DNA from: Pedobacter aquatilis
GTDB lineage: Bacteria; Bacteroidota; Bacteroidia; Sphingobacteriales; Sphingobacteriaceae
DNA: 64,000 nt
Assembly: GCF_030409415.1 (NCBI RefSeq)
Contig: NZ_JAUFPW010000012.1
Coordinates: forward strand, 310,001-374,000
Direction of reading: 5' to 3'
The notes below the pieces were generated by a model. That model was not told the DNA's origin. It saw only the letters and a program-made list of their open reading frames with translations, and ran no database searches. The stretch's first letter is position 1; each line of letters starts with the position of its first letter. Of the stretch, positions 1-30,057 are shown one piece after another. Both the position numbers and the translations under genes were made by a program.

Positions 1-497
1 GCAGCCGCCCGTTGCTCTATCTTGCGCATCTCCACCGAAAAAATTGATCTGCTTTTGCCTGATAGTAAGGTGAAAAAGACCTGCTTGGGTTTTTTGCGTC
101 CTAAGAAAGCCTCAATCTCAGAAGTATTCCAGACGATCTCATCGAAGTGTTCCAGATCCGTATCCAGCACAGAATAAATTCTCCGGCGGTGCTCCGGACT
201 TGCCCAATCTGCATCCTCAATATTAAGAATCAGGTCCGTAAAACCGATTTTGTGGCGTTTACAAAAACTAACCATCGCCTGTTGGTCATCCCGGGCATAG
301 CTGTAGGGCCTACCCTCAAAGAAAATACTCACTGCGTCCCAAAAGTAGGCACTTCGGCCATAGAAGTAGGCGGCATTAACCAAATCGGGACGGTCCCATA
401 ACGGATTAAATGTCCCAATGAACAGATAGTCGATTTCCCAGTCCGGAAAAAGCTGGCCATCAATATGTAAACCAAGGTATCGGTGGGGGCAGGGCAT
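1..497 (-). CDS. Uracil-DNA glycosylase-superfamily protein (partial, C-terminus cut by window)
   Basis: An open frame runs from ATG at 497 to the window edge, 165 codons without a stop, so the 3' end is missing. Residues 26-32 read FIGTFNP and residues 44-53 read YFYGRSAYFW. This pair is laid out like the water-activating loop and following helix of the UDG superfamily, and it parallels LGTLPGD / YYGHARNRFW in the next gene (620-1402). Such enzymes flip out and excise damaged or unusual bases. The exact UDG family and substrate cannot be told. Two adjacent UDG-fold genes of different families beside a defence island suggest a base-excision role in defence, which is inference. Confidence 0.7.
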   Translation of the reverse strand, partial: MPCPHRYLGLHIDGQLFPDWEIDYLFIGTFNPLWDRPDLVNAAYFYGRSAYFWDAVSIFFEGRPYSYARDDQQAMVSFCKRHKIGFTDLILNIEDADWASPEHRRRIYSVLDTDLEHFDEIVWNTSEIEAFLGRKKPKQVFFTLLSGKSRSIFSVEMRKIEQRAA

Positions 498-619
498 AGC
501 GTCATTTTTGGATTTACTTAATTATAGTAAAATAATTCAGAAGAAAAAAATCTTTTTCAAAATAGCCATTCGCTTCCCCAACCTATAAATCACGGCCCAC
601 ATTTCGATGAAGTAAGGCT

Positions 620-1402
620 TCAGACCATTCCTAGGGCGGATCTCCACTGGTTTAACAATTGTTCCAGATTCCAGGAGGCGTTGGCTGGGCTGGTGCTCGG
701 CAAGGTCACATACCTGATGTTTGCCCTGCGCTTAAAATATTTGTCATACAGTACCTGCGCTTTATTTCCGTTAAAAGCAATGAGCGAAATACTGGATTGC
801 CGGTCCATAAAGCTTTCCAGGTCATTCACCTGTTCCTCCCGAATCGCACTATCCAAACTGCCTTTGCGCTCAGAACTGTGCACCACGTCCCAAAGCCCGA
901 TGCCCAGAGCAAATAGTGCACTTTTCTTAGACGCATAATCCGTTAATTCCGCCCGCAGGCTTAAGCCCGCGACCACTTTCCAGAAGCGGTTGCGCGCATG
1001 TCCATAATATTCCATTTTTCGTAGAGACTCATCACCGGGCAAGGTGCCCAGTATCAAAATCTGAATCCGCTCATCAAAGAGTGGCGCAAAGGAAGCTTTG
1101 ACCACTGAAGTCGGCACAGGCAAATGGGATGTTTCAATCTTTGGTTTAGCGGATACCTTTCTGCGGAGATTGATCGACACGGCCTCACTAACAACATCGA
1201 TTAGCATCGGCTTTACGGACCGGTTAACCGTGAACATAAGCGGATAATTCCTGACCCTTGCACAAATTTGGGCAACTGAAATGACAGTGCCGTCTGCTTT
1301 TCGGTACCATTTATTAGCGTTTAATGCTTCGCTGATCTTGCCGGCCTCCATAGGCTGCCCGGCCTGCCGTATAAGTTTCTCAATGGCTTCGTGTAATTTC
1401 AT
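620..1402 (-). CDS. HARE-HTH domain fused to DNA-deoxyinosine (hypoxanthine) glycosylase-like UDG domain
   Basis: This 260-residue protein has two parts. Residues 1-68 look like a HARE-HTH winged-helix domain, with an amphipathic start, the KWYRKADG segment and a hydrophobic end near MFTVN. Residues 110-255 are a UDG-superfamily domain of the DNA-deoxyinosine glycosylase type, with LILGTLPGD at 116-124, YYGHARNRFW at 132-141 and a closing STSPANAS loop at 236-243. The family excises deaminated bases. HARE-HTH domains occur in restriction and chromatin proteins and have been proposed to sense DNA modification. It is transcribed away from the helicase genes and beside another UDG-like gene. The fusion is clear; the target base is unknown. 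Confidence 0.75.
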   Translation of the reverse strand: MKLHEAIEKLIRQAGQPMEAGKISEALNANKWYRKADGTVISVAQICARVRNYPLMFTVNRSVKPMLIDVVSEAVSINLRRKVSAKPKIETSHLPVPTSVVKASFAPLFDERIQILILGTLPGDESLRKMEYYGHARNRFWKVVAGLSLRAELTDYASKKSALFALGIGLWDVVHSSERKGSLDSAIREEQVNDLESFMDRQSSISLIAFNGNKAQVLYDKYFKRRANIRYVTLPSTSPANASWNLEQLLNQWRSALGMV

Positions 1403-1531: not shown

Positions 1532-2443
1532 TTAATAATGACGATTCCTTAGATCCAGTTCCAGCTGAAATCTTGGGTTAAAGCCAAAGGATGGAATAGC
1601 TACCGTATCATTTGGCTCATTTGATCCCTGCCGGCTAGTGGATAGGGGCCGAGGTTGGATAAATTCCATGACCCGGTTTTCATCCTCCATTTTCAACCAT
1701 TCCCCGTCTATTCTCAAAGCAGAGCGAGGCGCTTTTGTAAGCGCGTAATCCGGCGGTAAACCTGAAGCCTCCAAAATCAATTCGTCATCAAGACCCGAAA
1801 AAATACAAGCCAGATCAGAAAGCGGGAAAGCATGTTTAAAATGGAGTTGGCTATACCTGACCTTATCACTCAGGTCCTTACCTGAGGCGTCTGGGAAAAG
1901 GTCTTTCATCTTTTGGGCACCCACCACGGTGCAACCTGGGCCTTTAGATCTTGGGTGTTTTTTTCGTACATAGTTGTACATCAGGTACATCGGAATGTAA
2001 CCCCTTTTTTTTGCATAGTCCAACAGGATATTCACCTGTGAATCCGCCTTGGGACCTTTGCCCACCATGTGCTTGAACTGCGGATAGGTACCGTCATCCA
2101 GGTGGGTTCCCTTTTTAACATCTCCCAGGTTATGGTAGATGATCTTGGCCTGCAGCGCATAAGTGTAGACCTCGCTTTTGCTCGATAGGATGCGCAGTAG
2201 CAAGTCGTGGCCATTCGCCTTCTCGTTTCTAGACTCAAAAAGGGTGTATCCAATATGGCCAAATCGATGTTTGAGCAGCCGGAGCTCATAAACGATATTT
2301 TGGGTAACCGTAGTCTCCATGATCCGAAGACCAGGGGTTTCCCTGGTAAAGCCAATACGTGCCCAGGTATCCTGTTCGACTGCCCTCAGCAGCTCACACG
2401 GCCCCACAGCTTCGAGGCCCCTTAGGTAGTGTTCAATACTCAT
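1532..2443 (-). CDS. PD-(D/E)XK-like nuclease, uncharacterised family
   Basis: This 303-residue protein has an N-terminal pattern typical of the restriction-endonuclease fold: a helix with E53 in VYEL, then GHD (D80) on a predicted strand, then QAK (Q98-x-K100) on the next strand. That is the E...D...(E/Q)xK arrangement, with Gln in the acidic position as in some Mrr/DUF families. The rest (100-303) is basic and aromatic and I do not recognise it. It lies between the glycosylase gene (same strand) and the divergent helicase operon at 2724, with a 280-bp divergent promoter region between. A nuclease role in defence is inferred from the motif and context only. Confidence 0.5.
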   Translation of the reverse strand: MSIEHYLRGLEAVGPCELLRAVEQDTWARIGFTRETPGLRIMETTVTQNIVYELRLLKHRFGHIGYTLFESRNEKANGHDLLLRILSSKSEVYTYALQAKIIYHNLGDVKKGTHLDDGTYPQFKHMVGKGPKADSQVNILLDYAKKRGYIPMYLMYNYVRKKHPRSKGPGCTVVGAQKMKDLFPDASGKDLSDKVRYSQLHFKHAFPLSDLACIFSGLDDELILEASGLPPDYALTKAPRSALRIDGEWLKMEDENRVMEFIQPRPLSTSRQGSNEPNDTVAIPSFGFNPRFQLELDLRNRHY

Positions 2444-8734: not shown

Positions 8735-8742
8735 TATATTTG
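8735..8742 (+). promoter_or_regulatory. Bacteroidota -7 element upstream of the ssp modification operon
   Basis: TATATTTG matches the Bacteroidota consensus TAnnTTTG. It lies 31 bp before the ATG at 8773, which leaves a short leader and argues against an upstream TTG start at 8740. I find no well-placed -33 TTTG. The remainder of the 8460-8772 gap (313 bp) shows no gene or clear repeat. Confidence 0.45.
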
Positions 8743-8772
8743 CAGCCCGATTTACAAGACCCAGGACCGATC

Positions 8773-9921
8773 ATGCAGGAAACCATCTATTTCGATAACA
8801 ATGCCACTACGCCTCTCGACGGGCGGGTATTGGCCGAGATGATGCCTTATTTGACCGGGCTCTATGGGAATGCGGCCAGCACCCATATTCTGGGAAGAAA
8901 GTCCAGGCGCGCGGAAGAAAAAGCAAGGGAGCAGGTCGGAGAACTACTCAACTCGAACCCAGAGGATATTTACTTTACCGCTGGCGCTACCGAATCTATA
9001 AATATCGCACTGCGCGGCAGCCTGTCCCGGTCGGCACATCCAGCGCCACACATCATTACCGTTGAAACGGAACACCCTGCAGTCATGGATACCTGCAGGT
9101 TTTTAGAGCGAAGTGGCGTGGAGGTGAGTTATTTGCCGGTTGATGGAAATGGACTGATCGAGTTGGCGCAGCTTAAAGGCCACTTCAGGGCGGGCACTTA
9201 TATGGTATGCGTGATGTGGGCCAATAACGAAACTGGCGTTATCCAGCCGATTGCGGAGATTGCGGCAATTGCCCATGAACATGGCGCGATTTTCATGACG
9301 GATGCCACCCAAGCGGTAGGAAGGATGGAAATTGATGTAATCGAGAACGATATCGATATCCTGGCCCTATCAGCCCATAAGTTTTATGGACCTAAGGGAA
9401 TAGGGGCCCTGTATCTTCGTCCCGGACTTAAACTATCCCCGCTGGTATACGGAGGTGGGCAGGAGCGGGGACTGCGAAGCGGGACGCTGAACATACCGGG
9501 CATCGTTGGTATCGGTGCCGCTGCGGCCTTGGCGCAGGCCAGCCTGGAAATTGATGAAAGGCATATTGCCCCATTGAAGGAGAAACTGGAATCCGGAATT
9601 TTAGCCTTAAGGGGTACCCGGGTTAACGGACAGGGAGCGGAGCGGCTTTACAATACCACGAACATCTGTTTTGAAGGTTTTGACAATGAAGCGCTGCTGC
9701 TCAACCTAGCCAATATTTGCCTGTCCAACGGTTCCGCCTGCCATTCGATGGTGATGGAGCCTTCACATGTGCTCAAGGCCATGGGCCTAAGCCAAGAAGA
9801 TGCCAACGCTTCTCTGCGTTTTAGCCTTGGCCGCAACAATACGATGCAAGAGGTGGATAGGGCAATAATCGAAATTACAGCAACCTTGGAAAACTTGAAA
9901 AAAGCTTTTCAGGATAATTAA
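8773..9921 (+). CDS. sspA: Cysteine desulfurase of DNA phosphorothioation system (SspA/DndA-like)
   Basis: This PLP-dependent NifS/IscS-type enzyme takes sulfur from L-cysteine as a persulfide. It has 382 residues from ATG 8773, the usual length. Visible motifs are YFDNNATTPLD at the N-terminus, TDATQAVG for cofactor contact, SAHKFYGPKG with the PLP lysine K203, and the mobile loop SNGSACHS with catalytic C323. It is the first gene of a plus-strand operon with a DUF4007 protein, a large ATPase and a PAPS-reductase-like protein. That context makes it the sulfur donor for DNA backbone phosphorothioation rather than a housekeeping Fe-S desulfurase. It would pass sulfur to the product of 14053-15168. 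I cannot see whether the genome has another IscS. Confidence 0.85.
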   Translation: MQETIYFDNNATTPLDGRVLAEMMPYLTGLYGNAASTHILGRKSRRAEEKAREQVGELLNSNPEDIYFTAGATESINIALRGSLSRSAHPAPHIITVETEHPAVMDTCRFLERSGVEVSYLPVDGNGLIELAQLKGHFRAGTYMVCVMWANNETGVIQPIAEIAAIAHEHGAIFMTDATQAVGRMEIDVIENDIDILALSAHKFYGPKGIGALYLRPGLKLSPLVYGGGQERGLRSGTLNIPGIVGIGAAAALAQASLEIDERHIAPLKEKLESGILALRGTRVNGQGAERLYNTTNICFEGFDNEALLLNLANICLSNGSACHSMVMEPSHVLKAMGLSQEDANASLRFSLGRNNTMQEVDRAIIEITATLENLKKAFQDN

Positions 9922-9963
9922 TAACAAGAATTAACGGCCTAAAGGCCATAACCATATCAATAC

Positions 9964-10842
9964 ATGAAGTTCTCCTTTTCAGGACATGAAACCTTTGCCT
10001 GCAAAAACTACTGGCTAAAAAAGGGCCTAGATTACATCAGGCAGACCGGCAAAAGCTTCGGCGATGATAACGCCGTGGTGGCGCTTGGCGTGGGCAAAAA
10101 CATGGTCAACTCCATCCGGTTTTGGTTGAGGGCCTTCAGTTTGATCGACGAGGCGGAAAAGCCGACGGAATTTGCTGATTTCATTTTTGGACAGGACGGT
10201 ACCGACCTTTATCTGGAAGATACGATCAGCCTTTGGCTGCTTCATTACCAGTTGATTAAAGGCCAGAAAGCATCGATATACAGCCTGGTTTTCGATCATT
10301 TCCGTCGGGAGCGGCAAGACTTTACCAAGGCGCACCTCAAAAGGTTCCTGCAACGCAAGATCCAGGAAAATAAGGAAAACTTTAGCGAGAATACTTTGGA
10401 TAGCGATATCAAGACCTTCTTAAACAATTACCTATCGGCAAATCCACTCGATATTGAGGAGGGATACATCAATGTGCTTCAGGAGCTAGGCCTGATCAGC
10501 CACTTTACCCAGCTCGATGACCATAACCACAAAATCGACTGGTACCGTTTCGATTCCAGTCCAAAAATGGACCTGCCCATTGAAGCTATGCTTTTTATTG
10601 TCATGGATAACCCCGATTATGGAAACAGCATCAGTCTTTCGGCATTGGCCAATGATGAGGGCAGCCTGGGAAGCGTATTCCTGCTCACCGAGATCGCGCT
10701 TCGGGATAAACTCAGCCGCATCGATAAAGCCTATGGGGTATTTAGTGAAACAGCGGGGAATCCTGTCCTCCAATTGAAAGAGGAAGGGAACAAGTGGGAA
10801 ATTTTAAAAAGATATTATGAAGGCAGCAGCGCAGCAGTATAG
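9964..10842 (+). CDS. sspB: DUF4007 protein, SspB-like component of DNA phosphorothioation
   Basis: This 292-residue protein begins with the hallmark of DUF4007, FSGHETFACKNYWLKKG, followed by the ALGVGKNMV segment. As I recall, SspB of the single-strand phosphorothioation system SspABCD belongs to this family and acts as the DNA nickase that opens the backbone for sulfur insertion. It lies 42 bp after sspA, and its end overlaps the start of the next gene by 26 bp, so the two are translationally coupled. No other domain is visible. Assignment to SspB rests on the family and on the conserved order A-B-C-D; activity is inferred from the described system. Confidence 0.82.
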   Translation: MKFSFSGHETFACKNYWLKKGLDYIRQTGKSFGDDNAVVALGVGKNMVNSIRFWLRAFSLIDEAEKPTEFADFIFGQDGTDLYLEDTISLWLLHYQLIKGQKASIYSLVFDHFRRERQDFTKAHLKRFLQRKIQENKENFSENTLDSDIKTFLNNYLSANPLDIEEGYINVLQELGLISHFTQLDDHNHKIDWYRFDSSPKMDLPIEAMLFIVMDNPDYGNSISLSALANDEGSLGSVFLLTEIALRDKLSRIDKAYGVFSETAGNPVLQLKEEGNKWEILKRYYEGSSAAV

Positions 10843-13800
10843 TTATTCACCATCGGTTAACATCATTCGTGATAAAGGCAAAAAACTGCGTTATATTAAT
10901 ACCTATAACGGCCAGCGCGCCTTTGAACAGATCATCAACCTGGCACCGGCCGGTGCCAGGGCTTTTACCCTGATTGGTGCCTACGGATCTGGTAAATCAT
11001 CATTTCTGTGGGCTTTAGCCGAAACCGCATCCGGGGCTGCTCACTTTGAAAACTACCATTACCTGCTTCAGGGTTATAAAAATACTGCATTTTTAGATCT
11101 GGTCGGTGATTTTAGTTCCATAACTAACTCCTTTGCCCAAAGCTTAAACTGTGAAGTTAAAGAAGTACTGAGCGCCCTTATCGCCAAGGCAGATGGGCTT
11201 AAGAAAAAAAATACGGCCCTGGTTATACGCATTGATGAGTTCGGGAAATTCCTGGAGTTTGCCGCCAAAACCAGTCCTGAGCGTGAATTTTATTTTCTGC
11301 AGCAGCTAGCTGAAGTCGCTAACGATCAACAAAGGAACATCATATTACTGACTACCCTGCATCAGGATTTTGCTGCCTATGCTTACCATTTGAGCGAAAG
11401 ACAAAGAAACGAATGGTTAAAGGTAAAGGGACGTTTCAAGGAAATTACCTTTAACGAGCCTGCAGAGCAGCTGCTCATTTTGGCGGCTAACCGAATGGCT
11501 GTGATAGATTTTCCGGTAGAGACATCCATGTTGGAGGATTTGCTGGAAACCGTGCAGGAAGCAAACGCATTTCCCTTGAGCGACTACTTCAACATAGAAG
11601 TCGCCGGGAAGCTTAGCCCCATCGAAATACTTGCGGGGAGTGTGCTTACCCTTTCCCTGCAGCGTTATGCCCAAAACGAGCGTTCGCTATTCTCTTTTAT
11701 CGAGAGCCATGATTTCCGGGGTCTGGAAAGCTTTATAGCCAGTCCCGATGCGGTACTCTACAACCTGGTCCATGTACACGATTACCTCATTTACCACTAT
11801 TATAACCAGCTGACCACAAAAGAAAATGTGGATTACCGCGCATGGCGGCTGATCAGGGAAAACCTGGAAAGCATTGAAGGGCATTTGGACGGCATCCAGT
11901 TAAAAGAGGCTAGCCAGCTCATCAAGATAATTGGCCTGTTAAACCTCTTTGGCAAGGGCTCGATCAACATTGACGATAAATTCTTAGTGGGTTATGGCCA
12001 AATCGTGCTCGCTCAGCAGCAGACCACTGAAGTCCTCAGGATTTTAAGCCAAAAGAAACTGATCCGTTTCCGCGAGCACAGCAACAAATACGTGCTTTTC
12101 GAAGGTACTGACGTCGACATCGAATACGCCATCGATGAGGCAGGGAACCTCATTGGCCATGTAGCCAATGTAAGCACCTTGCTCAACCAATATTTCACTT
12201 TCCCGGTCATGGCGGCCAAAAAGTTCCAGATCGATTATGGTACGCCGCGTTACTTTGAAATTATCGTCAGCGATGAGCCCATCTCGCAGGTCCCAACAGG
12301 GGAACGGGACGGTTTCATTAACCTGATATTTTCGGGCGCGATAGGAAGGGACGAGGTTAAAAAACACTCCCAGGATAACCAGGAGGCGATTCTTTACGTC
12401 TATTTTAACAATACCCAGCGGATCCGTGAGGAAATCACCCAGATTGAAAAAGTAAAGCAGGCCCGTTCCAAATATAACGATGACCGAAATGCCCGTCATG
12501 AATTTGACCAGATCATCGGCCACCACCAAAACATACTGCGCTACCTGGTGCTGGATAGTTTCTACACCGCAGATAAAGCGTATGTATCATTTTACTTTAG
12601 GGGAGCGGAAGTCACCAAAATACGCAACCGCCGTTCATTGAACCATTTCCTGAGCGAAATTGCCGAAACCGTTTATTCATCAACGCCGCATTTCTTGAGC
12701 GAGATGCTGAACAAGTCCAGGGTAAGTACGGCGATGCTCTCGGCAAGGAAGAACCTGATCAACAAACTGATTGAAAATACGAGTGAAAAGGACCTGGGCT
12801 TTAGTCCAAAACTATACCCGCCAGAGAAAACCATTTATTTATCACTCATACAGGATAAGGGTTTTCATAGGGAAATCGACGGCATATGGCAGCTTAGTGA
12901 ACCCACAGATGAGAGTTTTGCCCCAGTTTGGGCCACTTTCGAGGATTTTTTGAATAATGCCAAACATGCCAGGCTTTCGCTCCAGGAACTGGTCGATAAC
13001 CTGCTGACAAGGCCGTTGAAGCTCAAACGGGGCCTGGTCGATTTCCTGCTTCCGGTATTTCTACTGGTTAGGCAAAGCGATTTTGCACTCTTCAACCAGG
13101 ATGGTTTTATTCCGAAAATCAGTGCTGACCTTTTAGACCTGATCGTGAAGAAACCGTCTGATTATGCCATTAAAAGTTTCTCGTCTGCCGGAATCAATTT
13201 ATCGGTTTTTAACAAGTATAGGGCCCTGCTGAACCAGAAAGAAGAAAGCAGAACCTCGAATAGTGGCTTTATCGAAACAATAAGACCATTTTTAGCTTTT
13301 TATGACAGCCTGCCTGAATACTCCCAGCAGACCAACAAAATTTCAAGAGAGGCCATCGCCTTGCGCCATTCTATTGCCGAATCAACCGACCCGGAGAAAA
13401 CCTTTTTCGAGGATTTTCCAAATGCGATCGGTTATTCACTAAAGGAACTGGATGATGACCAGCAAAAGTTAGAAACCTATTTTAGTGCCTTAAGGGCTGC
13501 GATTTCTGATATCAGAAGCAGTTACCAGAACCTAATTGGCAGGTTTGAGGGATTTATCTTAGCGGAAATTGTAGGCGATAAAGACCTGGATTTCGAGCAA
13601 TGGAAACAAAAAATCCAGAAGCGATTTAAAAATATCAAAGGCTATATCGTGCCTGCGCACTTAAAAGTATTCCTGCAGCGCATCCACTCCAATATCGATG
13701 ACCGCAATACCTGGTTAAGCTCATTGGCCCATGCAGTCACCGGCTCCCAACTGGAGGAATTCACCGACCAGCAGGAACTGCTGCTGTTTAACAAATTCAA

Positions 13801-14050
13801 GGAGTGGGTACACGAGCTCGACAATTTCACCGATATGCAGCCTGGCGGAGAAGACACTTCCCTGCAAGACTCCGTACGCGTAGAGATCACCACCTTGGAG
13901 AAAGGCGTGCTAAAGCAAGTCTTGAGGGTACCCAAATCCAAAGAGAAGGAAATCGAAAAAGTGCAGAAACGCATGCACAAAGAATTGACCGAGGATAAAA
14001 ATTTGAATATCTTTATCCTGACTAAAATGTTGAACGAATTGATAAAATAG
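10817..14050 (+). CDS. sspC: Large P-loop ATPase, SspC-like
   Basis: This 1077-residue ATPase has a Walker A motif GAYGSGKS at 54-61 and a Walker B-like LVIRIDEFGKF near 135-145, both in the N-terminal third. The remainder is long, mostly helical and charged. In SspABCD systems the third gene encodes an ATPase needed for modification, and the size and position fit. The ATG at 10817 lies inside the sspB end; no closer ATG follows, and the KLRYINTYNGQRAF region before Walker A would be lost with a later start. sspD follows 2 bp downstream. It likely couples ATP hydrolysis to target recognition or strand handling (inference). Confidence 0.8.
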   Translation: MKAAAQQYSYSPSVNIIRDKGKKLRYINTYNGQRAFEQIINLAPAGARAFTLIGAYGSGKSSFLWALAETASGAAHFENYHYLLQGYKNTAFLDLVGDFSSITNSFAQSLNCEVKEVLSALIAKADGLKKKNTALVIRIDEFGKFLEFAAKTSPEREFYFLQQLAEVANDQQRNIILLTTLHQDFAAYAYHLSERQRNEWLKVKGRFKEITFNEPAEQLLILAANRMAVIDFPVETSMLEDLLETVQEANAFPLSDYFNIEVAGKLSPIEILAGSVLTLSLQRYAQNERSLFSFIESHDFRGLESFIASPDAVLYNLVHVHDYLIYHYYNQLTTKENVDYRAWRLIRENLESIEGHLDGIQLKEASQLIKIIGLLNLFGKGSINIDDKFLVGYGQIVLAQQQTTEVLRILSQKKLIRFREHSNKYVLFEGTDVDIEYAIDEAGNLIGHVANVSTLLNQYFTFPVMAAKKFQIDYGTPRYFEIIVSDEPISQVPTGERDGFINLIFSGAIGRDEVKKHSQDNQEAILYVYFNNTQRIREEITQIEKVKQARSKYNDDRNARHEFDQIIGHHQNILRYLVLDSFYTADKAYVSFYFRGAEVTKIRNRRSLNHFLSEIAETVYSSTPHFLSEMLNKSRVSTAMLSARKNLINKLIENTSEKDLGFSPKLYPPEKTIYLSLIQDKGFHREIDGIWQLSEPTDESFAPVWATFEDFLNNAKHARLSLQELVDNLLTRPLKLKRGLVDFLLPVFLLVRQSDFALFNQDGFIPKISADLLDLIVKKPSDYAIKSFSSAGINLSVFNKYRALLNQKEESRTSNSGFIETIRPFLAFYDSLPEYSQQTNKISREAIALRHSIAESTDPEKTFFEDFPNAIGYSLKELDDDQQKLETYFSALRAAISDIRSSYQNLIGRFEGFILAEIVGDKDLDFEQWKQKIQKRFKNIKGYIVPAHLKVFLQRIHSNIDDRNTWLSSLAHAVTGSQLEEFTDQQELLLFNKFKEWVHELDNFTDMQPGGEDTSLQDSVRVEITTLEKGVLKQVLRVPKSKEKEIEKVQKRMHKELTEDKNLNIFILTKMLNELIK

Positions 14051-14052
14051 CC

Positions 14053-15168
14053 ATGGCGAAAAAGGTGAGGCATGTATTGGGGATTTCCGGCGGGAAAGAT
14101 AGCGCGGCATTGGCGATATACATGAAGGATAACTATCCTGAACTGGATATCGAATACTACACGGCCGATACGGGGAAGGAGTTAAAGGAAACCTACCAGT
14201 TGATCAATAACCTGGAAGTTTACCTGGGAAAAAAAATCATCAAACTTAGGGCTTTCGATAAAAGCCCTGAGGCTCCCTTCGACCATAAACTCAAAAGCTT
14301 GGGCGGTTTTTTGCCCAATACGCTCAACCGCTGGTGCACCAAAAGCTTAAAGCTTGACGTATTTGAAAAATTTGTAGGCACCGACCCTGTTATATCCTAT
14401 GTTGGTATCCGCGGGGACGAATTGCGTGAGGGTTATATCTCCACAAAAGAAACCATACAATCCATTTTTCCGTTTCGCCAGAACATCTGGAGTGAGGAGA
14501 TTATCAAATTCGTCTTAGACAACAAAAAAATCACGGCCCTTGAAAACTTGGCCAAAGCGCATATCAAAGGGGATAAATTAGATCGGTTTATCGAAATCCT
14601 GCGCTTTCCGGTAAGTGAACTCTACACCAGGGAAGCTAAACTCAAGCAATTGCTTGAATTAAGCACCAAGGATTTTAACGCCGTGGCATATGCCTTGTTG
14701 AAATTATCCAGCTATCCCGTAGCACTTGAAAGCCATTTTCCACTGATCGAAAACGAAGAAATCCTCAAGCTCGATGATATCTTTGCCTTGCTGACCAAAT
14801 CCGGGGTAGGTATTCCAGCCTATTACAAGGATATCGAATTTGAAGTAAACGGCCAGCGCGCCACATACAATAGAAGCCGTTCAGGCTGCTACTTCTGTTT
14901 CTTCCAGCAAAAGATCGAGTGGATCTGGCTTTATGAACAGCACCCTGAACTTTTCGCTGAAGCCATGGAATATGAAAGATCGGATTTCAAATGGAATATG
15001 GAGGAATCCCTTGCTGAACTGATTCGGCCAGAAAGGGTAGAGGCAATCAAACTGGATTACATCAAACGCAAGCATCGCACCGAAAAAAACAAAAAAAGCC
15101 CGAAACTCAGGGATATCCTCGGTTCAGCGGATGATGTGGATCTGGCCTGTGCAAGCTGTTTCATTTAG
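14053..15168 (+). CDS. sspD: PAPS reductase-like sulfur transferase, SspD/DndC-like
   Basis: This 371-residue enzyme of the adenine-nucleotide alpha-hydrolase (PP-loop) superfamily has the PP-loop SGGKDS at 12-17 and TADTGKE shortly after, like PAPS reductase and DndC. A cysteine cluster is visible at C279-x2-C282 (GCYFCFF), with further cysteines C366 and C369 at the C-terminus, which may hold a cofactor or relay persulfide. The role is to adenylate the DNA phosphate and insert sulfur received from SspA. It is the last gene of the modification operon, starting 2 bp after sspC. Its end lies 16 bp from the end of the converging restriction operon, so no separate terminator fits between them. 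Confidence 0.85.
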   Translation: MAKKVRHVLGISGGKDSAALAIYMKDNYPELDIEYYTADTGKELKETYQLINNLEVYLGKKIIKLRAFDKSPEAPFDHKLKSLGGFLPNTLNRWCTKSLKLDVFEKFVGTDPVISYVGIRGDELREGYISTKETIQSIFPFRQNIWSEEIIKFVLDNKKITALENLAKAHIKGDKLDRFIEILRFPVSELYTREAKLKQLLELSTKDFNAVAYALLKLSSYPVALESHFPLIENEEILKLDDIFALLTKSGVGIPAYYKDIEFEVNGQRATYNRSRSGCYFCFFQQKIEWIWLYEQHPELFAEAMEYERSDFKWNMEESLAELIRPERVEAIKLDYIKRKHRTEKNKKSPKLRDILGSADDVDLACASCFI

Positions 15169-15184
15169 CTTGCCAGGAACAGCT

Positions 15185-16054
15185 TTATGAATCTATCTTT
15201 TTGTTGGCCAAACGGTATTCGGAAATTTCCTGGAAGGGGATATTTTTGTAATTGGCCAGGACCGAGGCAAAAGATCGGATCATCAGCCTTTCCAGCTCCA
15301 GACGTTGAAGCCTGGAAATCCACGGCGGCAGGCAGTCTATCCTGAAATGGTCCCAGTCCGGGATGTCCGCCCTAGGGGTCATAATCCTTTTGGTACTTTC
15401 GGATTCGCCAATATACAATAGCTTGCTTGTGGTATCGATCAAATAATAAATGATGTTGGTGTGTTCCAGAATTGATCCCAGTTCTGTTTTTGGACGCCAG
15501 TCTTGCTTGATGAACTTAAAGTCACCCTTTCCCAACAGCCTGTTTTCCATGTCGCGCAAAAGATGTGAATTGGTAAACTGTTTAAAAAGCTCCGGGAACA
15601 TCGGCTTCTGGGTGTAATGGGCATAGCAGTGGAAAGTCTTTGTTTTTTTATCAAATTCCAAATCTAAAAATTCCCAAAAGGGGATGTCTTGCTCCACGTC
15701 GCTAGAATAACCGCCGGCATTTTTGCGCAGTTTTTTTTCCAGTGTACGCATATAGCTCATCACAAAAATATCTTTCAGCGCTGCCGCAAAGTCTTTGGTG
15801 AAAAATAGCTTATAGTCAGTGTCATTTCCATATTTGGCTGTACAGAGTACAAAGCCGGGAAATTCCCGGCCATTGAATGATAGGCTTACACTGGCTACCG
15901 GATTTCTTTTGGAAGAATTTTCGCCAAATACTTTTGCCAAGTCCCACATTTCCTCCACCCAGCCCGGTATAGGTGTATCCAGCTTGGTAAAAAGCGAAGT
16001 ATCCACTTTCTTGCGCCAAAGGGGAAACCTGACTTTAGATCTTTCGGTCCTCAT
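15185..16054 (-). CDS. GIY-YIG nuclease-like protein, fourth gene of the FGH restriction operon
   Basis: This 289-residue protein ends in a GIY-YIG-like domain. YYLID (203-207) and YIGES (214-218) form the two signature strands, R223 follows in the KRIM helix, and the FRIDCLP strand leads to a helix LELERLMI whose E255 (or E253) fits the metal-binding glutamate. The first ~190 residues are unknown, with several aromatic strands. It starts directly after the stop of the H gene (no gap), so it belongs to the FGH operon. I do not recall a GIY-YIG partner as a standard part of Dpt or SspFGH modules. It may be the DNA-cutting effector (inference). Confidence 0.65.
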   Translation of the reverse strand: MRTERSKVRFPLWRKKVDTSLFTKLDTPIPGWVEEMWDLAKVFGENSSKRNPVASVSLSFNGREFPGFVLCTAKYGNDTDYKLFFTKDFAAALKDIFVMSYMRTLEKKLRKNAGGYSSDVEQDIPFWEFLDLEFDKKTKTFHCYAHYTQKPMFPELFKQFTNSHLLRDMENRLLGKGDFKFIKQDWRPKTELGSILEHTNIIYYLIDTTSKLLYIGESESTKRIMTPRADIPDWDHFRIDCLPPWISRLQRLELERLMIRSFASVLANYKNIPFQEISEYRLANKKIDS

Positions 16055-19000
16055 CTATTCTTCCTCATCCTTCACCAGTTCCCAGAATGCCCTATCCTTG
16101 ATTTTGACTGGTTCCCCACTTCCAAAATAGACCATCGAGTGGTGAATCTCCAGCTCCTTGATCTCTCCAGCCAGTTCATCCCTGTCTTTTTTGTTTGGCA
16201 ATTTGAATATCGTTGCTATCTCCTTATCCTTAATTTCACTTACCTTGTGCATGATCCAGGTTAGAATATAACTTGAATACTCATTCTCCGCCGTGGTAAA
16301 ATGGTTCAAGAACTGGGTGGAGAGAATTGTACCCACACCGTACTCACGGCCCTCTTTTAGGATTTTTCTCAGGGACTCAAAATTCTTGCTCATAAAATTA
16401 TCTGCCTCATCCACCAGGATCATCTTATTGATCTGCCTTAAACTGCCGTCAATTTCGCTAGATCCTGCAATTTGCATTTGCGCATAAAATTGGTCCAGGG
16501 TAATCGCCACGATCAAGTTCTGGATTTCAGCACTGTTTTTCTCCAGATTGATGATCGTTACCCCGTCGATCAAATCAAAAAGTGGCTTGGTCTTCCTTGG
16601 ATTAGGCTCAAAAAATTCAAAATCATAAAGTTTTTTCAGTGCAGCAAACAAACTGTCCTTCGCCACTTTATCCCGGTCCATGTAAATCTCCACCATATCC
16701 TTCATCGTTGGTGCAGGTTTATCCCAGGTATTAGGATCTCCTTTAAGAATTCCAGCGTTGGTATAAGCTTCCATGATGGCCTCAGAAAGGGCCAAGTCCT
16801 GCTTATTTCCCAAACCAAATGCTTTTTTGATAGTATCCTGGAAAGTACTTGCGGTGTGAAGCGGAAGCAATTTCTTTGGATGCTTACCAACCGATAACGA
16901 AAAAGGGTTAAATGGCAATTGGTGCAAATCATAGACTTTCGCGCCAGTTGCCTGAACGAAATCTTCCTTTACATAGTCCCCCTTATAATCGAAAATTAAA
17001 ATCCCAATTTTCTTTCCGCCAACATTATCATCACTATTGCGAATCAGCTGGGTAATCAGCGATTTGGTGAACTGTGTCTTTCCCGTACCCATCGTACCGA
17101 TTATACCGGTATTGGTATGGGAAACCTTATTGGCACTTGTTGGAAACCATTCCACCAAATCGCCGTCCAAAGTTCGGTTACCAAAAACCACGCTCAAGGG
17201 TTTTTTAACAGTCACAGGTTCAGAATCTGGTATCTCATCTATACTTTCATGACTTAACTCCAGGGCCATAAGCGCAGGGTTTTCCTCCAGATTTTCTTCA
17301 TTCACTAAAATTTCTGCAAGCGATCCTAGATCTTGGCCGTCCTCATCTTCCGCTGATATGACAACCTGTTGAGGTTCTTCCCGATGGCTTTCCTGATAAT
17401 CTTCAACCAAATTATAGAAAACTGGTTTTTCGTACCTGATTGCCAAGGTTCCATCTTCATTATCGGCAAAAGCTGAACGATCCTGGTAGCGTTCTTTGAG
17501 CTTGTCAATACTTAATAACAGGTCATTAAGCCCGTCTGCCTCATAAAGGGAAATGTTGAGCTGGGCGCCATCCAATTGAATCGACCGGCTAGCCGTGCTA
17601 TTTTTCCTGAATGAAATAACCCCATAAACTCCAATATAATCCCTTAAGCTGCCGATGACAAAGTCATCATTGAGCATTTTGCCGCGCCACTTTTCAATCT
17701 CTTCCCATTTCGACCTGTAACCTGGCCAGATATCATAAAGCGAGAGTTTTTGGGCAGCATTGATGGTCAACTTCGCAAAACTGTTTCGATACATCTTTCC
17801 TTTTAGGCCGGGCTGGGAGAGGGTCTCAATCAGTAAATTAAAGGTGTTTTTACCCTGTTTGCCCGCCTTTTCAATCACGCCCGTACTGGCGATACCGGTT
17901 TTAACCTCAATTGGATAAAAATATAGGTGTAACGCCCCATCGATCTCCTGCATCCCCACCATCAGCAGGTCGTCGGAGTGTTGGCCCTTCTGGTTTAAAT
18001 TTGCAAGGGCAAAAATACCTACTTTGGTTTTCAGCTTGGAAGCTCCGGTTACCCTTAAGATTTCCTCCAGTGATAAGGCAACCCAGGTGACATCAGGGTG
18101 GTCAAGAATCGCGAAGGCCTCTTTCACTGCCGAAAGAATACTGATCTTTTCTTTATTGACATTATCCGTTTGACTTTGGGAGCCTAATTTTAATAGCCAG
18201 TAGCCATTCAGGGCATTGTAGATATTGATAATGGAGCGCTCACTACCGTCAATGTGCTCTACCTTATCTTTTAAGTACTGGTTCAATATCGTTTCGTAAT
18301 GCTCGTATTTGGTGGTAATGGTTATCGAATCATAACTACTTGAATTGCTGAACTGATCCGCATAATGAATGATCGCTACCTCTGATCCCTTCTTAAAAAA
18401 ATTAAGGTCCACTCCGGGATTGATGAAGGTTACCCACTGTGAGGCTTCATAAATCTTATTGAGGCTTTGTTTGACATTATTGTTGATCAGGGATGCGAAA
18501 ACGTGGCCCGATTTATAAATATTAGAAGTTTGATGGATTTGGGCGAGGTAATTCAACTTCTTGACCAGTTCTACCAAAACGTTACCTGCATTATCCGGAA
18601 GATACTTAGTGCCAAAGCTCGTTTTATAATCACCGTGCAAATAAACCGATGGAACCTCTGCGCTAAGTCCATTTAGGGATAGGCCAGTAGGAACTTCCCC
18701 GCTGTTGTTGTCGGCACGGCTGATCTCATTCTCATTGAACTGATGAAAACTTAAATGGGCATAATCCAGTTCAACCCCCTCAATACCTTTTCGGCTTTTG
18801 ATAAAGAACTGTGCTTTTTGATGGAATAGTTTAAGGAAATCCTCAATTTCCATCGTTCCTTTCAGGCTCTTTAAGTCAATCCCGAATTTTTCCTTAATGA
18901 TGCCGGCATCATCAAACCGGGAGAACTGCTCAAAGCAGGTGAAAAACCCATCCGCACCATAGATATTGACCGCTAGGGGGTAGACTAAATTTGGATTTTT

Positions 19001-21406
19001 TGCAGCAGAAAGAAGCGATTTGGTCAGTGTCGAAAAATACTGCAAGAGCCCTTTCATCGCTTCGCGTCCATCACCGACATTGATCAGATTGATCCTGATC
19101 GGCGAGTCACTGTCTATAAAATAAAAAGAGAAATGTCCGATAAACTCCTGGATTTTGGTCGAGATCACCTCGGCAACATTTTTTCGGTTAACCGTTTGTC
19201 CCTGCACACTCGCATTAACAAAAAATAACCATTCAGGTGAATGCTCCTGGTCCGTAGCGATAAAAAAGTCCCGGTCCCCGCTGCCATTTTTGATAAAAGG
19301 CAACAAGCCATTTGCACTGACCATTTTAAGCATCTCCCGGTTATCGGCAGCAAGGAAAGGCTGGTCCAGGATTTTAGATGCCTCCAATTGATAACAAACC
19401 ATTAAGGGGTGGAGCGGCGTAATTTTTAGCGACTTTAGTTTATCCAGCTCGCTCACAGTTCCCAGTTTAAGCAGCGAGCGGTAGACCGGATCAAGCGCCT
19501 CATTATCCCGCACCCGGTTTAGGTGCGCCAGATAAAGGTCGACATAGGTCTGGTAAATTGCCTTTAACTCCATACCGATATAAGCCGTACTCGGTAATAC
19601 AGGCTTTCCCAGTAAAGCTTGGTTCCGGTAATAATCTATGATGAGCTGGTAGGCATTCGTTAAATCTTCCGGGAGATGTTCTTCCGATTCACTTAATACT
19701 CCACTCATCTCCTCCATGCAAACCGGGAAGCCGCAATCGATAAGCTGCTTCTCCAAAAATAGGCTGCCCCTGATTTCCCCTGTAGGGATATAGGAGATAT
19801 TAGCTTGTTCGAGCACAATAGTATCTTCATTTTTAATGGTATAAAAGAAAGATTCACCAAGCTCATTTTTCTTGCGCCATAACTCTTTCCCCACAATTAC
19901 AGGGCGTTTGATCTCACCAATCAAAAATGAAAAAGGCAACAAGGCATGGCCGAATCTCAGGTTGAAATCCAGGCGGCCACTTTCAATAGCCTCTGTGTTT
20001 TGGATACGCAGGCCCAGGGATTCCCCACTGGTCAATTTATAAGAACCACCTTGTTCCAGCTCAATAGTTTCCTCCTCTTCAGCCAATGGATTTAATTTGA
20101 GTTCCCCTTCATACGGAGCAATCAGTCTAAAGCTCTTGTCCTTGGCGATACTGACCTTATAGCTTGCTGATATAGGGCTTAAGATGCTTTCCTGAAAGGG
20201 AACCACCAGGATGTTAAATTTTATTTTGTTGGTTTTCTTGTCGATTTCCTCCTCATAAGCCAGCTCAAAAGCATAAAAGCGTTCCGGGTCGAACAGCGAA
20301 ATCTCAACGGAGGCAGTCCTAGTTGCCGAGTCTGTACTTACCGTGAAACCCTCGGAGAAAAATTCGGCTTTGGGTGTCCGCTTGAATTTAAGGTTTAGCT
20401 GCAGGTTTTCCGCTTTATCCCTGTTGAAAACAATGAGACTAAACGTCTTGGATTTAGATTTGGAACCAGCTTTGGCCTCGTCGCGGTCCCAGATCTTAAG
20501 CGTCTCGGTACTAAGATGCTTATCATGAACCAAATATTCGTTATAGGCCGTATTTTGCCTGCCCTCGATTGAACTCTCAATCGCATCATAATTTGTTTTA
20601 TCCCAAGTTTCCCTTTTGGCCAGGGCATTTTGGCCTTTGGCATCGAAATTCCGTTCCAGATAGCCTTTCAAGGTGCCCAGGTCATCTTGCTTGGATAACT
20701 CTTTGAAGATTTTGGCATTGCGGCGCACCCGGAGTTTCACATCCAGATTGGATAGGTTACTATCCTGGATCTCCTTATCGTAAAAGACGCCCAATTCAAT
20801 ATAATTTTCCCTCTTCAGGTTTTTTTGCAATAATATGCTCAAGTATTTTGACAGGTCAAACACATTGGAATTTTCGATCTCAAAGTCGCTGAACTCCAAG
20901 TTAAGCAGTTCGGTTAAAAAATATTTTTGGGTCTGATTAAATTCCGTTTGCTTTTTAAATTCATCAATGATATTGAGCGAAATCGTGGCATAGTTCAACG
21001 GCATACCCATCGCAGTTAAATCAATACCGCCCTTGTTAATACTATCTAAATCCGAATAATGGACAAATAACAGCGCACTATCCGATTCAAAGCCGGGAAC
21101 CTTTTGAAAGTTGTTGCGCAGGCCGGTCAAAAAATCACCATCGCTGAATGTTGCAACGATTAGCTTAATGCCTTTGATCTCAATGTAATAGGTTGAATAA
21201 TCGTGATACGAATATTCCCCAAGACGAATATTTTCGTCATCATAAAGGCCTACGGTCAATTTAAGATAGTTGTACAACGCAGCGACATTTCCCTTATTCT
21301 CAAATTTAATCTGATATTTTGTTCCGTTATTGATCTCGCCACCTATGAAGAAATCAAGTAGTCGTTGGGACAGGTAGAAATATATTTTATTTTCTAAGGT
21401 TTCCAT
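16055..21406 (-). CDS. sspH: DptH/SspH-like HerA-FtsK family ATPase of phosphorothioation-dependent restriction
   Basis: This very large protein (1783 residues) has a C-terminal HerA/FtsK-type motor: Walker A GTMGTGKT near 1436-1443, then FDYKGDY, and a Walker B region MILVDEADNF near 1660 followed by STQFLNHFT, typical of DptH-type translocases. The N-terminal ~1400 residues contain beta-rich segments and a DUF-like region with a nuclease-type EVKTG motif around PIEVKTGIAS. Length and position after F and G match H of the dpt/ssp FGH module, which attacks DNA lacking phosphorothioate. It lies 5 bp after G and abuts the GIY-YIG gene. The EVK in mid-protein may mark an embedded PD-(D/E)XK domain; I cannot confirm its other residues. 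Confidence 0.78.
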   Translation of the reverse strand: METLENKIYFYLSQRLLDFFIGGEINNGTKYQIKFENKGNVAALYNYLKLTVGLYDDENIRLGEYSYHDYSTYYIEIKGIKLIVATFSDGDFLTGLRNNFQKVPGFESDSALLFVHYSDLDSINKGGIDLTAMGMPLNYATISLNIIDEFKKQTEFNQTQKYFLTELLNLEFSDFEIENSNVFDLSKYLSILLQKNLKRENYIELGVFYDKEIQDSNLSNLDVKLRVRRNAKIFKELSKQDDLGTLKGYLERNFDAKGQNALAKRETWDKTNYDAIESSIEGRQNTAYNEYLVHDKHLSTETLKIWDRDEAKAGSKSKSKTFSLIVFNRDKAENLQLNLKFKRTPKAEFFSEGFTVSTDSATRTASVEISLFDPERFYAFELAYEEEIDKKTNKIKFNILVVPFQESILSPISASYKVSIAKDKSFRLIAPYEGELKLNPLAEEEETIELEQGGSYKLTSGESLGLRIQNTEAIESGRLDFNLRFGHALLPFSFLIGEIKRPVIVGKELWRKKNELGESFFYTIKNEDTIVLEQANISYIPTGEIRGSLFLEKQLIDCGFPVCMEEMSGVLSESEEHLPEDLTNAYQLIIDYYRNQALLGKPVLPSTAYIGMELKAIYQTYVDLYLAHLNRVRDNEALDPVYRSLLKLGTVSELDKLKSLKITPLHPLMVCYQLEASKILDQPFLAADNREMLKMVSANGLLPFIKNGSGDRDFFIATDQEHSPEWLFFVNASVQGQTVNRKNVAEVISTKIQEFIGHFSFYFIDSDSPIRINLINVGDGREAMKGLLQYFSTLTKSLLSAAKNPNLVYPLAVNIYGADGFFTCFEQFSRFDDAGIIKEKFGIDLKSLKGTMEIEDFLKLFHQKAQFFIKSRKGIEGVELDYAHLSFHQFNENEISRADNNSGEVPTGLSLNGLSAEVPSVYLHGDYKTSFGTKYLPDNAGNVLVELVKKLNYLAQIHQTSNIYKSGHVFASLINNNVKQSLNKIYEASQWVTFINPGVDLNFFKKGSEVAIIHYADQFSNSSSYDSITITTKYEHYETILNQYLKDKVEHIDGSERSIINIYNALNGYWLLKLGSQSQTDNVNKEKISILSAVKEAFAILDHPDVTWVALSLEEILRVTGASKLKTKVGIFALANLNQKGQHSDDLLMVGMQEIDGALHLYFYPIEVKTGIASTGVIEKAGKQGKNTFNLLIETLSQPGLKGKMYRNSFAKLTINAAQKLSLYDIWPGYRSKWEEIEKWRGKMLNDDFVIGSLRDYIGVYGVISFRKNSTASRSIQLDGAQLNISLYEADGLNDLLLSIDKLKERYQDRSAFADNEDGTLAIRYEKPVFYNLVEDYQESHREEPQQVVISAEDEDGQDLGSLAEILVNEENLEENPALMALELSHESIDEIPDSEPVTVKKPLSVVFGNRTLDGDLVEWFPTSANKVSHTNTGIIGTMGTGKTQFTKSLITQLIRNSDDNVGGKKIGILIFDYKGDYVKEDFVQATGAKVYDLHQLPFNPFSLSVGKHPKKLLPLHTASTFQDTIKKAFGLGNKQDLALSEAIMEAYTNAGILKGDPNTWDKPAPTMKDMVEIYMDRDKVAKDSLFAALKKLYDFEFFEPNPRKTKPLFDLIDGVTIINLEKNSAEIQNLIVAITLDQFYAQMQIAGSSEIDGSLRQINKMILVDEADNFMSKNFESLRKILKEGREYGVGTILSTQFLNHFTTAENEYSSYILTWIMHKVSEIKDKEIATIFKLPNKKDRDELAGEIKELEIHHSMVYFGSGEPVKIKDRAFWELVKDEEE

Positions 21407-21411
21407 AGGTC

Positions 21412-22863
21412 TTATTTATAAAGTCTTTTAACGAACTGGGCATCACCGCTGTCACTCTTTTTTTCCAATAGGTTGATCTTCTCAAAAAACGCAATAGCCT
21501 CTTTTTTTGAAATATTATCGAAAAGGATATCCCTTTTTTCCAGGTCATGCCATAACTGACTGATCAGAATTTTATCCTTTCCACTGGAAATGATCGAAAG
21601 TTCCGTGAAGAGCAATAATGTATCCTTATCGATCTTCAAGCTGCCGCTTAGTGATCCCCTTGTCTTAAAAAAGTTAGTCCTGGCGAACTCGGTAAAATAA
21701 CTGCTGAATGAATTGTATGCCGGCCGGGTTGTGTTGTTCTCAAACTGAAATTTCATAAGCGAGAATAATTCATGAATGAGTTTGAATGGTGCTTTTTTGC
21801 CCTCAAACCATTCTGGGACACAGTAATTAGACTCGAAGTCTGCTATTAGAATTCTTTTATTAAAGTTTTCCTTATATTCATCAACAAACTTCGTAAGGGT
21901 ACGAATTAATTCCGCATCATCCCGATCATTTAATTGAGCGATAATTGGTGTCAGGTCATCATAGATAAAACAACTGCTAAGGCCATACTTGGGGTCGATG
22001 TCTATCGTATTTAACATTTCGATACAATTTGAATGGGCAAATAACGCAGCAGTCGTGTTTTTAAGCAGATGCCAGCCATTTTCAATTGCCAGTCGGGATT
22101 TCGACAATTTCTCCCATTCCAGGGAATAAAACAGCTTAAGCGGTTTGGCATCTAAGTCGAAAAAATTATTCAGCCTGTCGGAGAGCCTGATAATGTAGAT
22201 GAAGTAATAATATTGTAGAAGACTGCCTAGCTTGCTGGAGAATAATTTGTCACTTTTAGCCAGCGCCGACAGGTCAACCTTAAATAATGCCAACACGTCC
22301 TTGGCAACATGCCCTTGATAATAGTTTTCGTCTTCTTGAGTAACCTGCTCATCCTCAGAAAGGCTAGCTAACTGATCAAGCACCAAGCTATGCAAAACAT
22401 TTGACTGGTCGTCCTGCGAAATTTTATCTTTCAGAATCTTAATCACTTCATGATCGATGAGCAAATTTGCAATGAAGGATTCGATCGTAATATTCTGTTG
22501 GCTGGTATTGTTGGCCGTCAAAAAGGGGAGTACCCTATGGCTAAACAATAGGATGCTGCCTTTATCATCAAAAAATAACGATGAAATAATATCGGCCAGT
22601 TTTTGAGGTTCTTCGCTCGATACAATTGCATTGACATCCTTTATCATCGTTGCTTTAGAAACAGCCTTGGATTGGCTGGTAGCTAGGCAATTCCGGCAAA
22701 AACGACCCGTCACTCCCCTGAAATTTTTTAAGTCCGGCAGAATTTTAGGCAGATTTTCAACCGTTGAGGTATATGGGAATAATCGAATGGTCTTTCCGCT
22801 ACTGTGTGTAAAATCGTCCTTGAAAGCCGCCTTATATCGGCTTTGGTTTCTTGTAAATCCCAT
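21412..22863 (-). CDS. sspG: DptG/SspG-like component of phosphorothioation-dependent restriction
   Basis: This 483-residue protein lies between F and H with gaps of 2 and 5 bp. It has an N-terminal CxxC (RFCRNCLATS, near residue 48) that could bind metal. The rest is helical and has no NTPase or nuclease motif I can see. DptG/SspG proteins are poorly conserved, so assignment rests mainly on position between an F-like P-loop protein and an H-like translocase, and on similar size. It is expected to be a structural or bridging subunit of the restriction complex. Confidence 0.68.
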   Translation of the reverse strand: MGFTRNQSRYKAAFKDDFTHSSGKTIRLFPYTSTVENLPKILPDLKNFRGVTGRFCRNCLATSQSKAVSKATMIKDVNAIVSSEEPQKLADIISSLFFDDKGSILLFSHRVLPFLTANNTSQQNITIESFIANLLIDHEVIKILKDKISQDDQSNVLHSLVLDQLASLSEDEQVTQEDENYYQGHVAKDVLALFKVDLSALAKSDKLFSSKLGSLLQYYYFIYIIRLSDRLNNFFDLDAKPLKLFYSLEWEKLSKSRLAIENGWHLLKNTTAALFAHSNCIEMLNTIDIDPKYGLSSCFIYDDLTPIIAQLNDRDDAELIRTLTKFVDEYKENFNKRILIADFESNYCVPEWFEGKKAPFKLIHELFSLMKFQFENNTTRPAYNSFSSYFTEFARTNFFKTRGSLSGSLKIDKDTLLLFTELSIISSGKDKILISQLWHDLEKRDILFDNISKKEAIAFFEKINLLEKKSDSGDAQFVKRLYK

Positions 22864-22865
22864 AA

Positions 22866-24717: not shown

Positions 24718-24957
24718 TTATTCTTGGACGGATTCTGAGGGCATAAAGTCCTTGGGGCTACAATTAAACTCCTGCGCGATTTTGTTAAGCTGGTCAAAGG
24801 AATACATACTAGCGGAGCGAACACTTTCAATTTGTCCGATGTATCCATCCGTAACTTCCAGCACCATAGCGATATAGGGCTGAGATTTTTTATGCTGATT
24901 ACGGATTCTCTTCACATTCTCCACAATGGCAAGCTCAAAGTTTGATTTCATTCCCAT
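24718..24957 (-). CDS. XRE-family HTH regulator upstream of the FGH operon
   Basis: This 79-residue protein is essentially one helix-turn-helix domain, with VKRIRNQHKKSQPYIAMVL as helices 1-2 and TDGYIGQIESV as the recognition helix region. It is transcribed towards sspF with a 142-bp gap and is the obvious candidate to control the restriction operon, which must be restrained until DNA is modified. Small XRE repressors are common at the head of restriction modules. It could autoregulate from the 24958-25415 gap. Confidence 0.7.
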   Translation of the reverse strand: MGMKSNFELAIVENVKRIRNQHKKSQPYIAMVLEVTDGYIGQIESVRSASMYSFDQLNKIAQEFNCSPKDFMPSESVQE

Positions 24958-27823: not shown

Positions 27824-27825
27824 AA

Positions 27826-30054: not shown

Positions 30055-30057
30055 ACA

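Follow-up and report, generated by a model that had tools for sequence, protein, structure and literature searches.

Brig1 and Brig3, two DNA glycosylases of the uracil-DNA glycosylase (UDG) superfamily, have been published as defence enzymes: the former is described as acting on alpha-glucosyl-5-hydroxymethylcytosine (PMC11078745) and the latter on 5-hydroxymethylcytosine (PMC13160076), both with weak uracil activity. According to the account of Brig3, its island also contains genes of a cyclic-oligonucleotide-based antiphage signalling system (CBASS) and SspABCD-SspE-like genes (PMC13160076). HARE domains, on the other hand, are described in Dnd neighbourhoods as fusions with restriction endonucleases (PMC10853773), and the proteins listed with the HARE winged helix include DNA glycosylases (Aravind and Iyer 2012, as cited in PMC3767597). 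Here, we analyse a 64,000-nucleotide stretch (the window) of the Pedobacter aquatilis genome (G000; contig C4, NZ_JAUFPW010000012.1, positions 310001-374000), in which a hypoxanthine DNA glycosylase (HDG) fused to a HARE helix-turn-helix (HTH) domain (HARE-HDG, or gene2) and a divergent HDG relative (gene1) lie beside DNA phosphorothioation and DndFGH genes. In the few relatives found, the long form of gene1 (gene1-long) sits, or sat, at such phosphorothioation defence loci, which suggests that it may belong to a base-removal arm of phage defence.

The two glycosylase genes form a minus-strand trio with a DUF6615 gene, in the transcription order DUF6615 (2443-1532), HARE-HDG (1402-620) and gene1 (from 497 onward, past the window edge). 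The intergenic gaps of 129 bp (DUF6615/HARE-HDG) and 122 bp (HARE-HDG/gene1) are compatible with a single, putative operon. An earlier reading of the letters alone (the sequence-only reading) had placed two neighbouring UDG-superfamily frames on this strand, at 3-497 and 620-1402, and both are there; the leftward extension it proposed does complete gene1. The features of the trio are as follows.

3-497 (1-497 in the feature list), minus strand: 5' part of gene1-long (some 165 codons out of 334), the gene being truncated at the window edge
C4:309493-310497 (L002:9493-10497), minus strand: complete gene1, 334 aa, obtained by extending the contig leftwards
620-1402, minus strand: HARE-HDG fusion (gene2), 260 aa
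1211-1402, minus strand: HARE-HTH domain of the fusion, residues 1-64, from PF05066 matches of homologues and three modelled helices
644-1093, minus strand: HDG (family 6 UDG) domain of the fusion, residues 104-253 (TIGR04274, 2l3f)
1532-2443, minus strand: DUF6615 protein (PF20320) with a GxD...QAK pattern, 129 bp upstream of HARE-HDG

By sequence and predicted fold, the C-terminal part of gene2 is a canonical family 6 hypoxanthine (DNA-deoxyinosine) glycosylase. Specifically, it matches the Pfam UDG family PF03167 (45 bits against a cut-off of 24.3, residues 108-246) and the NCBIfam DNA-deoxyinosine glycosylase TIGR04274 (155 bits against a cut-off of 80, residues 104-253), and its closest PDB chain by sequence is 2l3f (1.1e-25), deposited as a putative UDG. 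In a fold search with residues 99-260 of the predicted model, 2l3f is matched at Z 13.2 with a root-mean-square deviation of 3.6 over 145 residues; the next-best match is MUG at Z 11.3, and MUG/TDG lie at Z 10-11. The motifs GTLPGD or GTMPGD (GSLPGD in P. terrae), EYY..N.FW, IGLWD or IGIWD, FNG and LPSTS are kept across 12 HARE-HDGs. HARE-HDG thus shares the complete domain and the motifs of family 6, to which it adds a HARE-HTH at the N-terminus and a linker modelled with very low confidence (residues 57-99, predicted local distance difference test score, pLDDT, under 50). The HARE-HTH domain that the sequence-only reading had named probably occupies the N-terminal 64 residues: when homologous N-terminal domains are aligned, PF05066 matches 28 of 30 at E up to 0.1 (best 2.1e-9), although the window's own copy does not match at E 0.1. 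The N-terminus is modelled as three helices, and the HARE profile retrieved three PDB chains, none of them convincing (best E 0.27). In a tree of 66 HDG domains, from which a frame-broken homologue (L107, HARE and HDG parts in different frames) was excluded together with its alignment row, all 12 HARE-HDGs fall within one clade of 14 with a support of 0.986, the other two members being stand-alone HDGs. The three HARE-HDGs paired with gene1 group together at a support of 0.056 and are therefore not called a clade.

Gene1 is a remote HDG relative within the UDG superfamily, as judged by profile comparison and not by Pfam. It has no Pfam or PADLOC match of its own and only a chance NCBIfam match at 0.13, and none of the eight aligned members of its family matches PF03167 at E 1. 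The family profile, however, matches that of HARE-HDG in hhalign (95.6%, E 1.3e-8), four of the eight members match TIGR04274 (best 1.5e-8), and hmmsearch gives weak cross-matches between the gene1 family and HDG in both directions. Against the PDB, the profile finds 2l3f at E 0.15, ranked behind a chance match at 0.05, and the predicted model of gene1, built on three sequences, has a pLDDT of 39, too low for use. The sequence-only reading had spoken of two different glycosylase types; gene1 is indeed divergent, yet both genes belong around HDG. Twenty-three residues are invariant in the gene1 family, including GTFNP, FY, FW, D88, DA and H103. Gene1 of the window carries the GTFNP motif (N31), FYGRSAYFW (A50) and, at the C-terminus, an extension of some 110 aa that is confined to the long form. 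It is distant from family 6, with GTFNP in place of GTxPG, and shares the GxNP motif with family 2 (TDG/MUG). In the alignments, N31 corresponds to TDG Asn140, which is reported to be catalytic (PMC3488261), and A50 corresponds to HDG N138 and TDG Asn157. The Asn157-equivalent position is Ala in all four long forms (including a pseudogene in genome G132), whereas it is Asn in all 15 short members with a readable motif. The three intact long forms all keep N31.

The genes to the right of the trio place it beside a phosphorothioation system, as the sequence-only reading had it. PADLOC assigns SspC (10817) and DndFGH, and the SspC gene cluster also holds a cysteine desulfurase (8740), a DUF4007 gene (9964) and a gene resembling 3'-phosphoadenosine 5'-phosphosulfate (PAPS) reductases (14053, slightly below the Pfam cut-off), which we take to be SspA, SspB and SspD from family class and gene order. 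Among the window genes scanned, no SspE or SspFGH was noted. The window's features beyond the trio are listed here.

2628-24414, no strand: segment of 21,787 bp missing from P. ginsenosidimutans (G118, L096), where a truncated dndF start is left
8740-15168, plus strand: SspABCD-type phosphorothioation genes, SspC by PADLOC and the others by class and gene order
16055-24575, minus strand: DndH, DndG and DndF restriction genes, including PADLOC assignments
24718-30738 (block 25416-30738), no strand: HTH gene and four-gene block, 96-98% identical in P. ginsenosidimutans, where they adjoin the trio

All four genomes with gene1-long have or had DndFGH at the locus, in three distinct loci. DndH is found in 8 of 145 Pedobacter genomes, and three of the four gene1-long genomes carry it, at 15.6 kb (P. 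aquatilis), 13.5 kb (P. terrae; G683, L097) and 5.9 kb (G132) from gene1-long. The hypergeometric probability of this co-occurrence is 4.4e-4 for three of four genomes and 1.1e-4 for three of three distinct loci, values uncorrected for shared ancestry and for the definition of the long form after the data had been seen. In P. terrae, DndFGH, Shedu and genes of the DndC, DndD/PbeC and GmrSD types surround the pair, and the G132 locus holds DndFGH, a DndB-like gene and, by eye, DndC- and DndD-like genes; the neighbours considered at these two loci were in part selected by eye. SspC, searched for in 10 genomes, is present in P. aquatilis and G027 only. P. ginsenosidimutans matches the window to the left and to the right of 2628-24414; of dndF it retains the initial 46 codons and then a stop (L044:12217-12376). 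This remnant marks a 21.8-kb deletion scar, by which the Ssp genes and most Dnd genes were lost there, so that the alternative of an empty site was rejected. The idea of the trio as an integral part of the Ssp operon was likewise rejected, for the trio lies on the strand opposite to SspABCD and was retained in P. ginsenosidimutans after Ssp loss.

Several side observations concern this island. Across 8740-24575, SspABCD-type modification genes stand together with DndFGH. Beside DndH of P. terrae, L181:8202-9029 encodes a 275-aa protein whose N-terminus looks winged-helix-like by eye and is not matched by the HARE profile; it takes the place that 15185-16054 (289 aa, no Pfam match) has in the window. 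The four adjacent genes at 25416-30738 encode proteins of 397, 405, 742 and 226 aa and gave no family match above cut-off (Trypsin_2 at 0.03, CarboxypepD_reg at 20 bits). What the sequence-only reading took for the island edge is merely the edge of the window: genes for a CBASS oligonucleotide cyclase (PDLC00808, 9e-99), HORMA and TRIP13 lie 5.8-8.2 kb further left (L002:1836-4216, C4:301836-304216), and the defence island therefore runs beyond it.

Of 250 genomes from the order, 56 have HDG matches, mostly as stand-alone frames of 160-190 aa. Full-length HARE-HDG is patchy, being found in 3 of these 250 genomes and, in a phylum sample, in 2 of 395 (P. aquatilis counted in both). A contig scan yielded 60 loci, 12 of which span HARE and HDG, including the frame-broken L107, and these make 13 HARE-HDG loci with P. 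aquatilis. In three of the 13 (P. aquatilis, P. ginsenosidimutans and P. terrae), gene1-long follows HARE-HDG after 122-125 bp, on its strand; the two genes are a real pair and probably a functional one. Matches to the gene1 family occur in 14 of 145 Pedobacter genomes and the long form in four, the copy in G132 being broken; a further family sample searched with the long-form profile gave matches in 6 of 281 genomes, none a new long form. By eye, several short gene1 relatives (L048-L051) have ordinary neighbours, and others adjoin DUF262/GmrSD-like gene pairs (L052, L053) or an HsdS-like gene (L172). A plasmid or phage origin for gene1 was also considered and rejected: tblastn found no match in 72,556 plasmid records (E 1e-5) or 50,697 phage records (0.01), and a viral-contig scan gave none. 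For HARE-HDG, 19 plasmid records match, none reaching the first 56 residues or covering 80% (gene1 alone was searched against the phage records), and at two viral-contig loci the match is to HARE alone or to part of the HDG domain alone.

The DUF6615 protein matches PF20320 (32 bits against a cut-off of 23.8), and the GxD(x)nQAK pattern is present in four DUF6615 members. The pattern is as in PD-(D/E)xK-type nucleases, from which we infer a nuclease activity. Close relatives occur in 3 of 145 Pedobacter genomes by protein search, and a UDG-type gene lies beside each of them. In G217 (L089:9158-10691), 10 bp separate a DUF6615 gene, 59% identical to that of the window, from another HDG-like gene (203 aa); by sequence, the two form a second pair of a nuclease-like gene and a glycosylase. 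In the phylum sample, DUF6615 is found in 3 of 375 genomes, too few to judge a general association with UDG, and no glycosylase was seen by eye within 1.5 kb on each side of the two loci other than that of P. aquatilis. The literature searched gave no mention of DUF6615.

Between P. aquatilis and P. ginsenosidimutans, omega (the ratio of nonsynonymous to synonymous substitution rates) is 0.32 for DUF6615, 0.19 for HARE-HDG and 0.20 for gene1 (0.12 in the enzyme part and 0.29 in the extension), values under 1, as would be expected under purifying selection. Additionally, synonymous divergence (dS) is 0.05-0.08 in the HTH gene, the four-gene block and DUF6615, whereas HARE-HDG reaches 0.17 and gene1 0.62, an increase that indicates that the gene1 end of the trio probably recombined.

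Like Brig1 and Brig3, the Pedobacter pair consists of UDG-superfamily genes in a defence island; as far as the published descriptions of those enzymes, rather than their sequences, allow a comparison, the Pedobacter enzymes differ in being HDG-like and paired, with one of them bearing HARE. HARE-HDG also resembles the fusions of HARE with restriction endonucleases in combining HARE, close to phosphorothioate genes, with an enzyme that attacks DNA, but here the effector is a base-removing enzyme, and the word 'glycosylase' does not occur in the main text of PMC10853773. Keyword searches of the literature combining DNA glycosylase, phosphorothioation and DndFGH surfaced only a study of resistance to reactive oxygen species and a review, and a keyword search pairing hypoxanthine DNA glycosylase with HARE found none. 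HARE in glycosylases and glycosylases in defence are already known; by these searches, the pairing of HARE-HDG with gene1 is new.

We propose, as the best reading and one that we hold tentatively, at somewhat less than an even chance, that the pair is a Brig-like base-excision arm of the phosphorothioate/DndFGH island. The nuclease-like gene, HARE-HDG and gene1-long would together make up a small cassette, accessory to defence and located at DndFGH/phosphorothioate loci. In it, HARE would dock the HDG domain onto DNA, possibly according to its base-modification state, and the HDG domain would remove a deaminated or modified base; gene1-long, with the Asn140 equivalent kept and the Asn157 equivalent replaced by Ala, may excise or bind a second, different modified base. 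Abasic sites would block replication of the invading DNA, and the neighbouring nuclease-like protein may cut them. The domains, the homology, the motif residues, the gene order shared by three genomes and the present or past DndFGH of all four gene1-long genomes are observed; the catalytic activities, the target bases and the role in defence are inferred. In favour of the proposal are the intact HARE-HDG with its canonical motifs, the kinship of gene1 with the UDG superfamily, the constant spacing of the two genes, the linkage of gene1-long to DndFGH, the defence genes around the P. terrae pair, the omega values, the second pair in G217 and the precedent of Brig1 and Brig3. Several findings weigh against it. 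The gene1-long loci are few and share ancestry, those of P. aquatilis and P. ginsenosidimutans being one locus by descent, and in the latter the trio persists after deletion of the phosphorothioate genes and is thus independent of them. At five of the eight Pedobacter DndH loci, the 34-40 kb examined contain no match to gene1, HDG, DUF6615 or HARE. In P. terrae, the DUF6615 position is taken by a frameshift-broken gene, HNH-type by eye and without a Pfam match; in G132, gene1 is broken and HARE-HDG is missing. The Asn-to-Ala change in gene1-long could reflect a loss of activity. Of the 13 HARE-HDG loci, ten lack gene1 in the flanks examined (short in L098, L100, L103 and L106). At least four of these ten have defence-type neighbours: L102 lies near a set of type I restriction-modification genes, L104 (P. 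psychrodurus; G052) near one SIR2 and one Fic gene, and L099 some 4 kb from a DNA methylase, and in L105 a TIR gene is immediately upstream. The other six show none that is obvious, their neighbours being ordinary or of unknown kind, and four of them have short flanks; the count, which covers nine genes chosen by eye from six of the ten loci, may be biased. The sequence-only reading had called for a search for other HARE-UDG fusions and had named homologues mostly in housekeeping contexts as evidence against itself. The outcome is divided: gene1-long is at present or past DndFGH loci in four of four genomes, whereas most HARE-HDGs lack gene1 and stand-alone HDGs are the common form.

A rival reading is ordinary base-excision repair, with HARE-HDG as the genome's hypoxanthine glycosylase riding in the island and gene1 as a diverged repair paralogue. 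Such a role would fit the abundance of stand-alone HDGs, the fact that HARE-HDG is the only HDG match at E 1e-8 in both P. aquatilis and P. ginsenosidimutans, the six unpaired loci without obvious defence neighbours and the ordinary surroundings of several short gene1 relatives. We nevertheless regard it as unlikely in view of the patchiness of HARE-HDG, its conserved pairing with gene1-long and the linkage of gene1-long to DndFGH. That same linkage would also be expected if the pair served self-protection, repairing or controlling base damage from the cell's own phosphorothioate/DndFGH machinery; the persistence of the pair in P. ginsenosidimutans after loss of the phosphorothioate genes, and its absence from five of eight Pedobacter DndH loci, make this quite improbable.

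Two further explanations concern gene1-long itself. It may have ceased to be a glycosylase and become a sensor or subunit that binds DNA and guides HARE-HDG or Dnd proteins, as the Ala found throughout the long forms in place of the Asn of the short ones, together with the extension peculiar to the long form, would suggest; given that Asn31 of GTFNP and other family-invariant residues are retained and that omega is low in the enzyme domain, we consider this decidedly unlikely. Alternatively, gene1-long may be a glycosylase retuned for phosphorothioate DNA, excising bases beside, or only without, a phosphorothioate and forming a restriction arm with HARE-HDG and the nuclease. This we hold to be highly improbable; if true, base excision would serve Ssp/Dnd systems as a restriction arm that tells self from non-self.

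Defence enzymes that excise bases were discovered only recently, and few have been published. If the proposed Brig-like base-excision arm is real, a paired, HDG-type set with HARE at DndFGH loci would widen their known chemistry, being of family 6 and not of the Brig type. The cassette is small and offers a directly testable question, namely whether base removal cooperates with DNA-sulfur modification against phage.
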